Shown here piece by piece: positions 1 to 32,093 of a stretch of 32,093 bases of DNA. A program made the translations under genes and the position numbers. A model generated the notes under the pieces. That model was given only the letters and a program-made list of their open reading frames with translations, was not told the DNA's origin and ran no database searches. Within the stretch, counting starts at the first letter, position 1. Each line of letters starts with the position of its first letter. This DNA is from a virus, in IMG/VR virus record IMGVR_UViG_3300042321_001853, positions 1 through 32,093 of that record, one strand, 5' to 3'.

Positions 1-127
1 AGTCGCTCAATGAGGCTTTCCGGCTTTTTCCAAGGATGCTCGTCGTTGCTGAAAAGCCGGTCAGTAAACAGGCCCGTCCGGTTGCTCCAGTGCAACGACC
101 CGTGAAACTCCAGACCGTAGCAGGCGA
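1..127. repeat. Terminal direct repeat, left copy (assembly overlap)
   Basis: This segment is identical base for base to 31967..32093. An exact 127-base overlap at contig ends is what a de Bruijn assembler with k=127 leaves on a circular molecule, so I read it as proof of circularity and not as a biological terminal repeat. The methyltransferase frame is open straight through the joined ends, which supports this. A real short direct terminal repeat is possible but less likely. Confidence 0.9.
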
Positions 128-437
128 TGACCTCAACAAACCGGCTGTATTTCTTCGCGGTGTTCTTTGTGGATTCCGGCTTGACCCAGTGAAGCACCTG
201 ATCCGGCTTGAGCGTGAGCGAGCATAGTTCTTCCGGCCACATGAAGATCGCAGCCGGAAGTCCGATGTCGCTTGCCATCTTCGCCAGCGCGTCTGCATCC
301 CCATTTCCGTACACGGGGTCCGCGACCATTAGGCTCGCATCTTGTGGCGGCGGATTGTCCTGCCACCTACCGCGAATGAATACATTGCTAACCACGCGAT
401 GCAGCGGACCCGCGAGAGCGTCGGTTGATTTATTCAT
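1..437 (-). CDS. DNA methyltransferase, N-terminal part (gene crosses the contig ends)
   Basis: On the closed circle the frame from ATG at 437 runs through position 1 into 31966 and stops at 31849, giving 184 residues. This part holds residues 1 to about 145. DPVY at residues 40-43 is a motif IV (normally DPPY, NPPY or SPPW), and the C-terminal piece holds HPWKKPESLIERLIRNH and DPCAGS. The order motif IV then motif I is that of beta-class N4-cytosine/N6-adenine methyltransferases. The protein is short, with little room for a target-recognition domain, and the second P of motif IV is V, so activity is uncertain. The first 15 codons lie inside attC-like site 1; GTG at 395 is another possible start. 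No restriction enzyme is adjacent, so it would be an orphan, perhaps masking phage DNA from host restriction. Confidence 0.8.
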   Translation of the reverse strand, partial: MNKSTDALAGPLHRVVSNVFIRGRWQDNPPPQDASLMVADPVYGNGDADALAKMASDIGLPAAIFMWPEELCSLTLKPDQVLHWVKPESTKNTAKKYSRFVEVIACYGLEFHGSLHWSNRTGLFTDRLFSNDEHPWKKPESLIER

Positions 438-474
438 GGTTATATGTCGCGGGCCGCTGATCGCTGGCGTTCTG
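387..474 (-). mobile_element. attC-like recombination site 1
   Basis: An imperfect palindrome built like an integron attC. Paired segments are AAC 390-392 with GTT 469-471, GCGAT 396-400 with ATCGC 460-464, CAGCGG 402-407 with CCGCTG 454-459, and CCCGCGA 409-415 with TCGCGGG 447-453. G401 and A408 are bulged out of the same arm, as extrahelical bases are in attC sites. The spacer between AAC and GCGAT is unpaired, and the total length (about 85 nt) is normal for attC. It starts next to the stop codon of the 65-residue gene (478), the usual place for attC in a cassette. Placement of the bulges would suit the opposite orientation, so orientation is unresolved. Confidence 0.7.
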
Positions 475-477
475 TGG

Positions 478-675
478 CTACTTGCTCGCGTTTGGCGGTG
501 TCGCATACGGGCAATCGACCTTCTGAAATGCCAGAGCGTTCGGGAAGTAAATAAACCGCTGCGTCTCGGTGGCCCAAGGGTGCCGAAACCTGAACACGGT
601 GTCGGCAACGGAGAACCACAAGGCCACCACAAACAACGCAGCGACGACATACGGATTCAACCGACGATCATTCAT
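478..675 (-). CDS. Small single-pass membrane protein, putative cassette gene
   Basis: A 65-residue protein with one hydrophobic segment at about residues 8-24 (YVVAALFVVALWFSVA), a short basic N-terminus and a polar C-terminus; a small inner-membrane protein of unknown function. GAGG lies 7 bases before the ATG at 675, which supports this start. The gene is framed by attC-like sites 1 and 2, and the 10-base inverted pair GTTCTGTGGC (469-478) and GCCACAGAAC (699-708) sits at its two ends. That is what a cassette should show, because these halves would join as R' and R'' in the free circle. Small membrane proteins are common cargo in environmental cassettes. I recognise no family. Confidence 0.7.
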   Translation of the reverse strand: MNDRRLNPYVVAALFVVALWFSVADTVFRFRHPWATETQRFIYFPNALAFQKVDCPYATPPNASK

Positions 676-698
676 CTATCAACCTCGCCTTTCTACGC

Positions 699-749
699 GC
701 CACAGAACCAAGCGATGCTGCGGACGAGCCGCAGATCGCTGGCGTTCTC
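699..749 (-). mobile_element. attC-like recombination site 2 (short)
   Basis: A shorter relative of site 1: AAC 706-708 pairs with GTT 744-746, GCGAT 712-716 with ATCGC 735-739, CTGCGG 718-723 with CCGCAG 729-734, around the loop ACGAG, with G717 bulged out. Its left arm aligns with that of site 1 (AACCACGCGATGCAGCGGAC against AACCAAGCGATGCTGCGGAC, 18 of 20 identical) and both right arms contain GATCGCTGGCGTTCT. The stop codon of the 102-residue gene (748-750) touches its edge. At about 45 nt it is shorter than typical attC sites. Confidence 0.6.
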
Positions 750-1056
750 ACTTGTCATTCATCGCGACCGAGTACCGCGCGAGCTTCTCGGCCTTCAACC
801 ACTCGAAGTAGACGACGAAAACGATGTTCGCCGTGATGCCGTGCCGATCAAGTAGCACCTTCCGCAAAAGGTCGAGCTTGCACGCCCCGGCATGGGTGAA
901 CTTGTCCGGGAACGAGCACCGGAGGATCGTCGTCGGCGGCTCGGCCTCGGCGAACTGGTCGAGGAAGATCTGGGCCGGCGCGTCCTTCCACTTGCCGACC
1001 TCGTACACGGCATGGCACGCGTCCTGGAGCTGCTCGGCGGTCATGTCGGCGATCAT
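748..1056 (-). CDS. Hypothetical protein, 102 aa
   Basis: Starts at ATG 1056, which overlaps the TGA of the replication-like gene upstream (ATGA), so it is translationally coupled to it and part of the early operon. A second ATG (1044) is possible. The protein is soluble, with an amphipathic N-terminal helix (TAEQLQDACHAVYEVGKW) and a C-terminal half that resembles a compact alpha/beta fold; I do not recognise a family. Its stop codon lies at the edge of attC-like site 2, making it the last core gene before the cassette patch. Confidence 0.75.
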   Translation of the reverse strand: MIADMTAEQLQDACHAVYEVGKWKDAPAQIFLDQFAEAEPPTTILRCSFPDKFTHAGACKLDLLRKVLLDRHGITANIVFVVYFEWLKAEKLARYSVAMNDK

Positions 1057-9986: not shown

Positions 9987-11054
9987 TTAGCCGCACCCGC
10001 AAAAAGGGTCGGAGGCGTGGCACCCGCTGAGCGCGGTCCCGTTGCACGTCGGAAGGTCAGTCGGGTGAGCCACGAACTTTTTCGAGCAAGGTGCCGGAGT
10101 CCTGCCGCCTGTGTAGACGCGACTACACGCCGCGTCGTTGAACGTCGCGCCGCCGTACACCACTCCCGGGAAAACATGAACGGATGAGTTGTTGAACACG
10201 GCTCCGCCGTAGACCACGCCTCCATTCAAAGATGAGCCGTTAAAGACTGCACCGCCGTAAACCGTCGCACTTCCGTGCGACGAGGTTCCGTTGAAAACTG
10301 CACCGTCGTTTACAACGCTAAAACCCCCACTGCCAGAGTTTGAGCGATCATTGAAGACAGCCCCCCCGTTCACCGTTGCGTTGTTCTCCCCGATAGAAGC
10401 GTCTTCATGGAATCGTGCCCCTCCGTTGACGACACCATCCAGTCCAAGAAATGAAAAGCCGCGAAAGACAGCGCCGCCGTTTACTGTGCCGCGAGTGTTC
10501 ATGTAGTTTGGGCCGTTGAACTGTGCGCCGCCGTTTATAATGCCTTCGAGAACACGAGGAGCGCTGCCAGGGGAGTTAAAAACTGTCCCGCCTGCGGTGT
10601 CGTGAGCGGTTCCAGTTGCGGTAACTTCAGCGCCGGAAACGATCACTCCGCTGCCCCAGACGTAGCACCTGCGAACCGTCTGCGGGCCGACGCGAGACGT
10701 ATCCAAGGGGGAGTAGATGTGGACAACAGCGGAAGCCGGCGGCAGCCCCGTAGCCCTCTTCACGAGGTTCGCTGCCGTTCCAGTTGACGGGCTGACATTC
10801 CTGCTGGACCACCAGTTACATATATTCCCCCAGTTTCTGATGTCAGCAGTCAAGGTCGAGCCGGAGGTCGAACTGCTTCCGTAGAAAAACCACGTTTCTC
10901 CGCTGTCGTCGCCAGGGTTTGCGACAAACGTCCACGCAACGCCGGAAGCCCACGTTCCGCTGGGAACCCAGTTCCCCTCGTCTTTTGGATCGGATCGCGG
11001 AAGTCCGTCAGAGACGGAGCAACCGCAGCACGTCCCGCACGGCATAAGAACCAT
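9987..11054 (-). CDS. Repeat-rich adhesin / receptor-binding protein
   Basis: 355 residues. From about 155 to 307 there are nine repeats with core GGAVFN (GGTVFN, GGAQFN, GGAVFR, GGARFH, GGAVFN, DGAVFN, GGAVFN, GGAVFN, GGATFN) spaced mostly 18-22 residues and joined by N/S/G-rich turns, the pattern of a right-handed beta-helix or beta-solenoid. The termini are cysteine-rich (CGTCCGC at 6-12, FCGCG at the end), suggesting disulfide or metal caps. The N-terminal ~100 residues (GETWFFYGSS, NWGNICNWW) would attach it to the tail. Its DNA is less GC-rich than the tail genes, which suggests recent acquisition or diversification. Confidence 0.6.
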   Translation of the reverse strand: MVLMPCGTCCGCSVSDGLPRSDPKDEGNWVPSGTWASGVAWTFVANPGDDSGETWFFYGSSSTSGSTLTADIRNWGNICNWWSSRNVSPSTGTAANLVKRATGLPPASAVVHIYSPLDTSRVGPQTVRRCYVWGSGVIVSGAEVTATGTAHDTAGGTVFNSPGSAPRVLEGIINGGAQFNGPNYMNTRGTVNGGAVFRGFSFLGLDGVVNGGARFHEDASIGENNATVNGGAVFNDRSNSGSGGFSVVNDGAVFNGTSSHGSATVYGGAVFNGSSLNGGVVYGGAVFNNSSVHVFPGVVYGGATFNDAACSRVYTGGRTPAPCSKKFVAHPTDLPTCNGTALSGCHASDPFCGCG

Positions 11055-29054: not shown

Positions 29055-30554
29055 TCAGTACCAGACGGTTATCCGAACAATCCCGTCCCCGCCGCTCCCG
29101 CCGGCCCCGCTGGAGAATCCGTTCAGCGATGCCCCGCCGCCGCCGCCGCCGCCGCCATAGGCGCCGCCGTTGCCGCCAGAGCCACCGGCGGTGAGCGTTG
29201 ACGCTGCGCCACCAGAGCCGCCGCCACCAGAGCCGCCCGCGGCGCCGGCAAGCCCCGCTTGCCCGCTGCCGCCGTGGGCGGCGCCGCCGGCAGGGCTGGC
29301 TATCGTGTTTCTCGTGATTTCTCTGTAGTACCCCGCGGCGCCAGAGCCGGGGACATTAGCGCTGGTAATACCGCCACCGCCGCCCCCGCCCTGCGCGCCT
29401 TGCGCGGAGTATCCGGGCACCGCCGCGGCGCCAGCCGCCCCACCAGCGCCGCCGCTTGCGCCGGTATAGGTAGAAGTCCATGCAGGCGAGCCGCCAGCCC
29501 CGCCGCTAGTGGTGCCGCCACCGCCGCCGGTCGTTCCGAAAGCGTACGCTAGGAAGTTTGCAGTCGAACTAATCTGAACGCTCGACGGCCCGCCAGAACT
29601 GCCGCTGTTGCCGTTCGCATCGTCAACTGACTGTGCTGCGCCACCAGCCCCGCCGGCTCCGACTATTACAGTGAGCCCACGAGACGACAGTTCTGCCGCC
29701 GGAAAAGTGTAGATCGTTCTGCCGCCGCCAGCGCCACCGCCGCCGCCGCCCCGAACAGTACCGGCTACGCCTCGCCGTCCGCTGCCGCCGCCGGAGCCGC
29801 CGCCAGTAACGTCGAGCGTTATAGCCTTTGCCGCAGCCGGAACCGTCCAGGTGTAAGCGCCGCCAGACCCGATCGCATCTGCCGGCTTACTTGATCGCGT
29901 GAACGTGTAGTTCTCGCACAGCGTCGCAGCGTCCGAGCCACCCGCACTGTGTGCCGAACCGTGAGCCCCGAGCCTCGCCGCGTCGAGCGTGCCGCTGGTG
30001 ATGTCGCTCGCGGCGTGGGTGTGTGCGGTCGGCGTCCGCGCGTCGGAGAGCCGCGCGTCGTTGCCGGCCGCCACGGTGCCGGCCGCGGTGCCGACGTTCA
30101 GCGTCGCCGCGCCGCCGAGCTGAAGCAGCGTCCGCGCCGTCGACGCGCTGGACGTGGTGAGCGTACCGCCGTCGTCGGTGGTGACGAATCTCCCGGAGTT
30201 CGTGTTATCGCCGATCAGGCCGTCGTTCGTGATGTTGCCGTGGGCGTGATCAGACGGAGCGAACGTCGCGGGCTTGTCGGTGATGCCGGCCCAGGTCGTC
30301 GTCCCTGCCGGCCCGGTAGGTCCCTGCGGCCCGGTCGCCCCGGCTGGCCCCTGCGGGCCTGCCGCACCCGTCGGGCCTGCCGGCCCGGTCGCCCCTGCTG
30401 GGCCCGTCGCCCCGGCTGGGCCTGTCGGCCCCTGCGGCCCGGCGGCCCCGGTGGGGCCCGCGGGCCCGACGCCGCCCGAGACGCTCGCGTTCACGGTCTG
30501 GCCGCTCGTCGATACCTGGACGTTCTGGTCGGTCACGGTAACGTCGATGCCCAT
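29055..30554 (-). CDS. Collagen-like and glycine-rich tail fibre
   Basis: 499 residues. After a short beta start (residues 1-28) come about 18 uninterrupted Gly-X-Y triplets (30-83, DNA 30305..30467), e.g. [14 protein letters not shown], which form a collagen trimer. Then a fibre-like [20 protein letters not shown] part typical of tail fibres. From about 245 to the end it is rich in GG and GGGG tracts (GGGGGGAGGG and [10 protein letters not shown]), like the polyglycine type II adhesin tips known from phage S16, ending [15 protein letters not shown]. Many of the tracts are GGN- or CCG-repeat DNA, prone to slippage. Probably the main receptor-binding fibre. Confidence 0.88.
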
Positions 30555-30883: not shown

Positions 30884-31228
30884 CTACGAGTCCGACTGCG
30901 GGACGAATCTCGGGTTCCAGCGACCGGCGGCCTCGTCCTCGCTCCATCGCTCGGCCCGCAGCTCGGCGGCGCGTCGATAGATCTCCTCGAGCGGGATGTC
31001 GACGAACTCGGGCTGCGGCGGGTACTCGACGCCAGGCCGAGGGCCACGCTGGCCCGGGGGCAGATCGGCGAGCTCGGCATGGAGAGCACGGTAGACACGC
31101 TTCTCGGGGACGCCGGCCGCCTGGGCGGCCTCGGCCCGCGTGGCCCCGTTGGCGATCGCCCGCCGGACGATCCGCTCCTGGGCGACCGTCAACATCCGCT
31201 CGCGCGGCTTCGGCGGCTTCCGCTTCAC
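30884..31228 (-). CDS. Helix-turn-helix protein, 114 aa
   Basis: Residues 13-48 (LTVAQERIVRRAIANGATRA then AGVPEKRVYRAL) are a homeodomain-like helix-turn-helix; the C-terminal half (FVDIPLEEIYRRAAELRAER) is a conserved-looking segment with a final Arg/Asp end. It overlaps RusA by 4 bases (ATGA) and precedes the late fibre and packaging genes, so it could be a late-gene activator. That is inference from position. Confidence 0.7.
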   Translation of the reverse strand: MKRKPPKPRERMLTVAQERIVRRAIANGATRAEAAQAAGVPEKRVYRALHAELADLPPGQRGPRPGVEYPPQPEFVDIPLEEIYRRAAELRAERWSEDEAAGRWNPRFVPQSDS

Positions 31229-31680
31229 GGGGGCGGCCTCCGGATCGTGACGCGGAGCCGGCCGGTGGCCCCCGGGGACGCGTACCGCTTCGACGCTGAA
31301 GACGCGACGATCTGCGAGTCGTCACGCCAGACCCCGCCGCCGGTCGTGATCGAGTCCCAGATCGCTTTCTCCAGGTTGTCGAGGTCCCCGCAGCCCTGGC
31401 CCGGGAACGGTGCGGCCGTCTTCCGAAGGGAGCGGCCGTCGGAGGTCAGGTGCGACTGCGGGCGGGTGAAGATCGCCTCGACGCCGATCTCGTGCGGGCC
31501 GGCGGTCACGTCCCAGCCGGCCCGGCGGGCCGCAGCCATACACGAGAGCGCGATCGCGGCCTTGTAGGTCTTGAGCCCACGCCGGTCCGGCGTGTAGGCG
31601 CGGCCGTTCGCGAACCGGGCCCGCGGCTGCGGGATCGGGTCGCCCGGGATCTCGAACGTGATCGCCGTCGTCGCATCCAT
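31225..31680 (-). CDS. rusA: RusA-like Holliday junction resolvase
   Basis: 151 residues from ATG 31680. EIPGDPIPQPRARF at the start and GCGDLDNLEKAIWDSITTGG with VWRDDSQIV are the RusA signatures; D99, D101 and D120 align with the three metal-binding aspartates and K105 with the conserved Lys. It cuts four-way junctions made by the Sak4-like recombination system, resolving concatemers before packaging. Confidence 0.92.
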   Translation of the reverse strand: MDATTAITFEIPGDPIPQPRARFANGRAYTPDRRGLKTYKAAIALSCMAAARRAGWDVTAGPHEIGVEAIFTRPQSHLTSDGRSLRKTAAPFPGQGCGDLDNLEKAIWDSITTGGGVWRDDSQIVASSASKRYASPGATGRLRVTIRRPPP

Positions 31681-31754
31681 GCGACCGCCCACGGTAGCGG
31701 GGCCCGCGGGCGAATCCAGCGACTACCGGGCGGGTGTGCTATGCGGCAGACGGT

Positions 31755-31855
31755 AACGCCGGGCCTCGCGTCTCGCGGCCGGGCGGCGCGGAACCGGCGG
31801 GGCGTTATGCGGAACGCCCGCCGCTATCGGGTTCCGCATACTCACTGGTTAGCAA
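31755..31855 (-). mobile_element. attC-like recombination site 3 (tentative)
   Basis: TTGCTAAC at the methyltransferase stop (minus strand of 31855-31848) is complementary to GTTAGCAA at the other end of the gene (minus strand of 392-385), the R''/R' pairing expected of one cassette. Downstream lies a perfect 10-base hairpin, TATGCGGAAC (31806-31815) and GTTCCGCATA (31831-31840), and a TAACG (31754-31758) to CGTTA (31803-31807) pair extended by CCGG; GTTACCG could be the far core. The paired arms are less regular than in sites 1 and 2. It could instead be just a terminator between methyltransferase and RusA. The rest of the 168-base gap upstream of RusA shows no gene. Confidence 0.4.
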
Positions 31856-32093
31856 ACATCGACCGAAACACTTCCGATCCCCAATCGCCTGCACACCATT
31901 TCCACCGTTCGACTACCCGCGCACGGGTCGTACACCGTGCCGCGTCCCGGCCAATGATTCCGAATCAGTCGCTCAATGAGGCTTTCCGGCTTTTTCCAAG
32001 GATGCTCGTCGTTGCTGAAAAGCCGGTCAGTAAACAGGCCCGTCCGGTTGCTCCAGTGCAACGACCCGTGAAACTCCAGACCGTAGCAGGCGA
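31849..32093 (-). CDS. DNA methyltransferase, C-terminal part (continues in 1..437)
   Basis: Residues from about 104 to the stop at 31849 (31967..32093 repeats 1..127). It contains HPWKKPESLIERLIRNHWPG, the region corresponding to the motif X to I approach in beta-class enzymes (family form HPTQKPxxLxERLIRxxS), and DPCAGSRTV, a motif I close to DPFxGSGTT, followed by VCRRLGIGSVSVDV. The stop codon TAA lies in the R''-like TTGCTAAC of attC-like site 3, the usual cassette layout. Confidence 0.82.
   Translation of the reverse strand, partial: ACYGLEFHGSLHWSNRTGLFTDRLFSNDEHPWKKPESLIERLIRNHWPGRGTVYDPCAGSRTVEMVCRRLGIGSVSVDVC
31967..32093. repeat. Terminal direct repeat, right copy (assembly overlap)
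   Basis: Identical to 1..127. Together they show that the true molecule is a circle of 31,966 bp; annotation of the ends should be joined. Confidence 0.9.

Follow-up and report, generated by a model that had tools for sequence, protein, structure and literature searches.

A phage genome with an attI-like site and two inverted gene cassettes: a probable integron platform without an integrase

The DNA analysed here, referred to as the window, is a whole IMG/VR record of 32,093 nt and represents a circular virus genome with a terminal repeat of 127 bp (1-127 = 31967-32093). A Pfam search showed that it encodes a terminase, an HK97-type capsid protein, RusA, an N6/N4 methyltransferase and an ordinary phage integrase, a gene content from which a temperate siphophage is inferred; the genome is read here as complete and the host as a planctomycete. 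At 29055-30554 and 9987-11054 lie a glycine-rich collagen-like tail protein and a protein in which NGGAVF-type motifs are repeated. The cassette region spans the point at which the circle was arbitrarily opened and is made up of the following features.

31225..31692, minus strand: RusA resolvase gene, the other flank of the array, on the same strand as the cassette genes (Pfam PF05866, E 5.5e-20)
31789..31848, plus strand: attI-like docking site, with the crossover after G31848 (between CCGCATACTCACTGG and TT); the match to contigs L137, L143, L148 and L149 ends here
31849..32093, plus strand: cassette 1 (methyltransferase), first part, absent from L137; GTTAGCAA pairs with TTGCTAAC of its own attC
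1..469, plus strand: cassette 1, second part, ending at the crossover G469/T470
437 to 1, then 31966 to 31849, minus strand: N6_N4 DNA methyltransferase coding sequence, 184 aa (Pfam PF01555, E 1.9e-8)
386..475, plus strand: long-loop attC of cassette 1, site A (70.9 bits and E 7.4e-20 with the host-attC covariance model; fold z -3.5/-3.9)
470..744, plus strand: cassette 2 (65-aa gene), between the crossovers G469/T470 and G744/T745
478..675, minus strand: gene for a small hydrophobic protein of 65 aa, reversed relative to attC; family unassigned, without a Pfam match
702..750, plus strand: short-loop attC of cassette 2, site B (42.1 bits and E 6.1e-11 with the host-attC covariance model; fold z -3.6/-3.8)
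745..1055, minus strand: phage flank past the array, the 3' portion of the adjacent phage gene, with its stop codon TGA at 750-748, also found in the empty site

A preliminary description of this DNA, made from its letters, had pointed to two palindromes sharing arms and bulges, and these are present as AAC..GTT structures: site A spans 390-471 and site B spans 706-746. The pattern of their 5' arm, with up to two mismatches allowed, occurs twice in the window against 0.03 occurrences expected in shuffled sequence, and the folding z-scores of both sites lie between -3.5 and -3.9. The suggested resemblance to attC was borne out by a covariance model built from 37 attCs, all from chromosomal arrays of bacteria of the same family as the planctomycete MAG G077 and with no window sequence used, which matches both sites at E-values that are rough because of the short calibration. 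The consensus fold of this model has the two unpaired bases in the 5' half that are typical of attC. It matched no third place in the window up to E = 5 and had no match in L137, a contig carrying the empty site; a search of Rfam gave no match. As a model independent of the window matches just these two places, and as the empty site aligns without a gap, the palindromes are beyond chance and are real attC sites, each a hairpin with R''/R' boxes and extra-helical bases. Two different R''/R' pairs had also been claimed, each fitting one gene, and both were found: GTTCTGTGGC (469-478) and GCCACAGAAC (699-708) frame the 65-aa gene, while TTGCTAAC (385-392) and GTTAGCAA (31848-31855) frame the methyltransferase gene.

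On the circle cassette 1 runs through 31849..31966 and then 1..469, the terminal repeat being counted once. Translation across the joint reveals that the stop codon of the methyltransferase is formed by the R' box. Its start codon (ATG, 437-435) lies inside the attC loop (MNKSTDALAGPLHRVV), a loop-start like those of viral loci L031, L067 and L068; the window's own loop has the start codon and no clear Shine-Dalgarno sequence. The enzyme probably serves anti-restriction. When the 65-aa cassette was sought in other sequences it was found in four further viral contigs (L002, L003, L004 and L005), and the BLASTN match to L003 and L004 covers 469-748, beginning at the G/TT point. The 65-aa protein has one hydrophobic segment and is 88-98% conserved in the four contigs; it is possibly, as a guess, a membrane exclusion protein.

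Comparison with relatives that lack the cassettes or carry different ones gave exact G/TT junctions. When the window flanks are joined (up to 31848 and from 745) they align with L137 over 302 columns at 92% identity with 0 gaps, and L137 is the empty site, in which CCGCATACTCACTGG is followed directly by TTCTCACTTG (ACTGG then TTCTCA at the junction). Contig L143, with a backbone 95% identical to that of the window, and contigs L148 and L149 carry other cassettes, inserted at the same base as in the window. Near-identical phages therefore exchange cassettes at one base, with G/TT boundaries and a precise empty site, and single cassettes that recur in differing contexts have moved as units. With different cassettes, or none, at the same base in relatives, these viruses appear to trade genes by way of the host's integron enzyme. 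L143, L148 and L149 also have in common an extra segment of ~190 nt between the last recognised attC and the phage flank, ending in GTGATCCCTGTCG, which is probably a degenerate last cassette.

By complementarity of R' and R'' the first cassette's far boundary could be placed in 79 viral arrays, 68 of them distinct; arrays were counted if they had just one candidate boundary, and a few chance ones may remain among them. A motif is common to these left boundaries, its most frequent form being TTATcGGGtCCGcATAAACACTGG followed by TT, and 35/68 end in CACTGG; some boundaries are chance matches, such as those of L012 and L051. Matches to the docking pattern in unrelated phages (L222 and L227, for example) were set aside because the 17-mer occurs there by chance. 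Host attI sites, located downstream of intI by the same procedure, are similar to the viral motif (z = 8.7 for the best pair, host site L202 against virus L034), with 43 of the 96 host-virus pairs above z 3 and a weak likeness in the other pairs. The window has, by similarity, an attI site at the start of its array. Because the motif is common to the viral boundaries and resembles host attI, the phage appears to own an attI-like site rather than to have been hit at a random target; the docking site also contains an inverted repeat, so it may possibly be a structure-based target instead of a true attI.

The 5'-arm pattern matched at least 119 stretches of IMG/VR. A two-arm finder then gave 312 sites in the loci examined and 0 in reversed controls, no locus having sites on both strands, and a scan of 257 Gb of bacterial genome sequence with a short-loop pattern matched only 4 contigs. 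A caveat that must be applied to this survey is that the pattern was derived from the window's own sites, so that other attC types are under-sampled, and that the records are for the most part contigs from metagenomes, many being fragmentary. In 178/202 viral cassettes the 8-mer of R' is complementary to that of R'', as a site rejoined on excision requires. Among 191 viral sites picked by fixed positions only, three free pairs covary, being Watson-Crick in 172/191, 190/191 and 187/191 against shuffled means of 96, 133 and 163, and loop lengths cluster strongly at 3-5, 9-13 and 42-45 nt. A terminase of the tested family was found in 14 of 33 array-bearing virus records. Among 87 cassette proteins were 12 DUF551 proteins, several DNA methyltransferases (N6/N4, C5 and Dam), one Mom and several HNH proteins, and the payload is one of typical phage accessory and DNA-modification genes. 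The preliminary view that phages rarely carry such cassettes holds for isolated phages and fails for environmental viral contigs, where this attC type is common. The attC core of the window type was matched by none of the isolated phage or plasmid records, and the terminases nearest to that of the window are less than 60% identical, so the phage has no cultured relative. A viral contig with a divergent attC type, loops of 43-88 nt and several forward genes (L014:85-4673) is perhaps host DNA or a second type of platform.

Orientation was scored with attC polarity as in host integrons, the attI side to the left and the unpaired bases on the 5' half. The longer ORF ran opposite to attC in 126 of 190 viral cassettes, forward in 16 and unclear in 48, a call made on ORF length in GC-rich DNA; for host arrays the corresponding numbers were 5, 16 and 3. 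The canonical arrangement, in which attC follows the ORF on its 3' side (typical, not absolute), is not that of the window, both of whose genes are reversed. Homologous gene bodies in new contexts gave 12 pairs that kept the site at the gene's 5' end and changed the other, and 0 of the converse, which indicates that a gene moves together with the site at its 5' end as one unit. A Shine-Dalgarno-like sequence with ATG, reverse to attC, was present in 139/185 viral long loops versus 3/40 host loops, and none occurred in the forward sense of the viral loops. The frame set by the loop ATG stays open for at least 50 codons in 127/136 cases, against 10 and 14 for the shifted frames. One arm of the attC would thus encode an N-terminal peptide, for example ..SAASRGS or ..SPASAGS. 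In 104 of 133 flanks, as a rough measure, the longest ORF points the same way as the cassette genes.

As the preliminary description had stated, no integron integrase is encoded: TIGR02249 was absent from the window and from the 32 other array-bearing virus records searched, and the window lacks the intI gene of a complete integron. In the MAG G077 (Planctomycetaceae), intI adjoins two reversed-gene cassettes of the phage attC family, and among the 398 genomes of its class G077 alone has a relative of the window's capsid protein (59%). The capsid gene lies on a contig of 40 kb on which 19 of 26 tested window proteins have matches, most at 40-78% identity, and which holds a prophage syntenic with the window phage. 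In other genomes of the family intI was found in 27/72 and the attC core in 21/72. Cyanobacteria were considered as the host and rejected. A contig of Cyanobium sp. FGCU52 (L133) has intI and some cassettes of the phage type, and among 42 genomes of Cyanobium full exact matches were found in this one only, two others having a single match with one mismatch; the window's capsid was found in none of 194 genomes of the class. With full matches in one genome and no capsid in the class, a guest relationship is more likely. At L133:10050-15820 the integron has intI adjoining a lipA-like gene and three cassettes with phage-type attC, one body of which is 92% identical to the viral contig L020. One protein body at L133:13158-13544 and L020:2009-2395 has differing attC-encoded tags (of the EPSPASAGS and MPPASAGS types), and the attC at the 5' end of the gene has thus been replaced or has diverged. 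Duplicated forward cassettes with different attCs on L133 resemble a toxin-antitoxin pair.

The reading favoured here, with a probability of roughly 0.8, is that the region is an integron platform without an integrase, in which an attI-like site of the phage holds two cassettes swapped by host IntI in trans, the inverted genes are read with the operon and the loops supply the start. The host's integron integrase would be present at infection or lysogeny and would recombine folded attC hairpins into the docking site and between attCs, so that near-identical phages come to differ in their accessory genes. The inverted genes of this phage would be read with the surrounding operon and expressed by read-through phage transcription, and this co-directional reading may be why inverted genes were favoured. 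Long-loop attCs would mostly provide the Shine-Dalgarno sequence and the start codon, so that every cassette would be translated as an independent unit. It is likely, too, that many environmental phages, probably of planctomycetes, run such a platform, with a shared pool of inverted-gene cassettes, loops as translation initiation regions and host IntI as the machine by which phages exchange accessory and DNA-modification genes.

It is improbable that a tyrosine recombinase encoded by the phage, and not host IntI, moves the cassettes. A gene of the Phage_integrase family is present in the window and in 15/21 array-bearing records, but the matches are weak and of ordinary phage integrases, none fits TIGR02249, and 6/21 records, some of them fragments, have no such gene; the matching prophage integrase, moreover, lies at an apparent tRNA gene, as expected for lysogeny. 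Very unlikely is the idea that the arrays are fragments of host cassettes (CALINs) gained by chance through illegitimate or homologous recombination and put to no recurrent use. CALINs are known from phages and such a route has been proposed for them (PMC9892861), and the attCs share their backbone with those of planctomycete chromosomes, yet chance gain sits badly with the exact G/TT empty site, with sister phages carrying other cassettes at the same base, with a single docking motif across dozens of viruses, and with reversed genes and loop start codons that are rare in host arrays. That attC polarity has been mirrored, the genes being in the usual orientation and a cassette being a gene with the site at its 3' end, can be dismissed: on its own strand every gene does have a site after it, and in a few bodies (L128/L020) the same protein bears different tags, but the mobile-unit test stands at 12 to 0 against it, the attI-like boundary lies on the opposite side, host arrays with forward genes show the same polarity relative to intI/attI, and such a crossover would break the methyltransferase gene about 15 codons in.

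With the platform without an integrase as the preferred reading, what looked like a chance oddity becomes a recurrent system, in which phages with a docking site would use a host integrase to swap accessory genes, DNA methyltransferases included. It would explain how the accessory regions of these phages come to be mosaic and would form a bridge between the chromosomal and phage pools of cassettes, and a single DNA element would act as recombination hairpin, ribosome-binding region and N-terminal coding sequence.

Class 1 cassettes (aadA7, attI1) have R''/R' boxes, a G/TT crossover and two extra-helical bases on the 5' half, as do those of the phage. They adjoin intI1, and their attC lies 3' of the ORF (PMC4670013), whereas the phage cassettes have attC 5' of the gene. 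Planctomycete chromosomal integrons are closer, with the same attC core, loop of 42-44 nt and bulge positions and a similar attI, but the phage is without intI, and the host genes are mostly forward and the host loops without a start signal. The window fits the definition of a CALIN (at least two attCs and no intI nearby), which does not foresee the attI-like site that the window has. Phages without intI that bear attC sites and cassettes, methyltransferase genes included, were described by Qi et al. (2023, PMC9892861), who reported 17 CALINs in isolated phages and found that five of six tested attCs of virulent phages were active with IntI1, so the kind is known. The text of that paper has no mention of start codons, reversed genes or Planctomycetes, and the literature searched, which did not extend to most subscription papers and preprints, gave no account of an attI platform that lacks an integrase and has inverted cassettes with starts of their own. 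Compared with the CALINs of Qi et al. the family of the window adds a dedicated attI-like site, inverted genes and translation starts in the loops, together with an empty site, exchange between sister phages and hundreds of sites. What looks new is a recurrently used platform of attI and cassettes without an integrase, whose genes are inverted relative to attC and whose attC loops carry a Shine-Dalgarno sequence and start codon.
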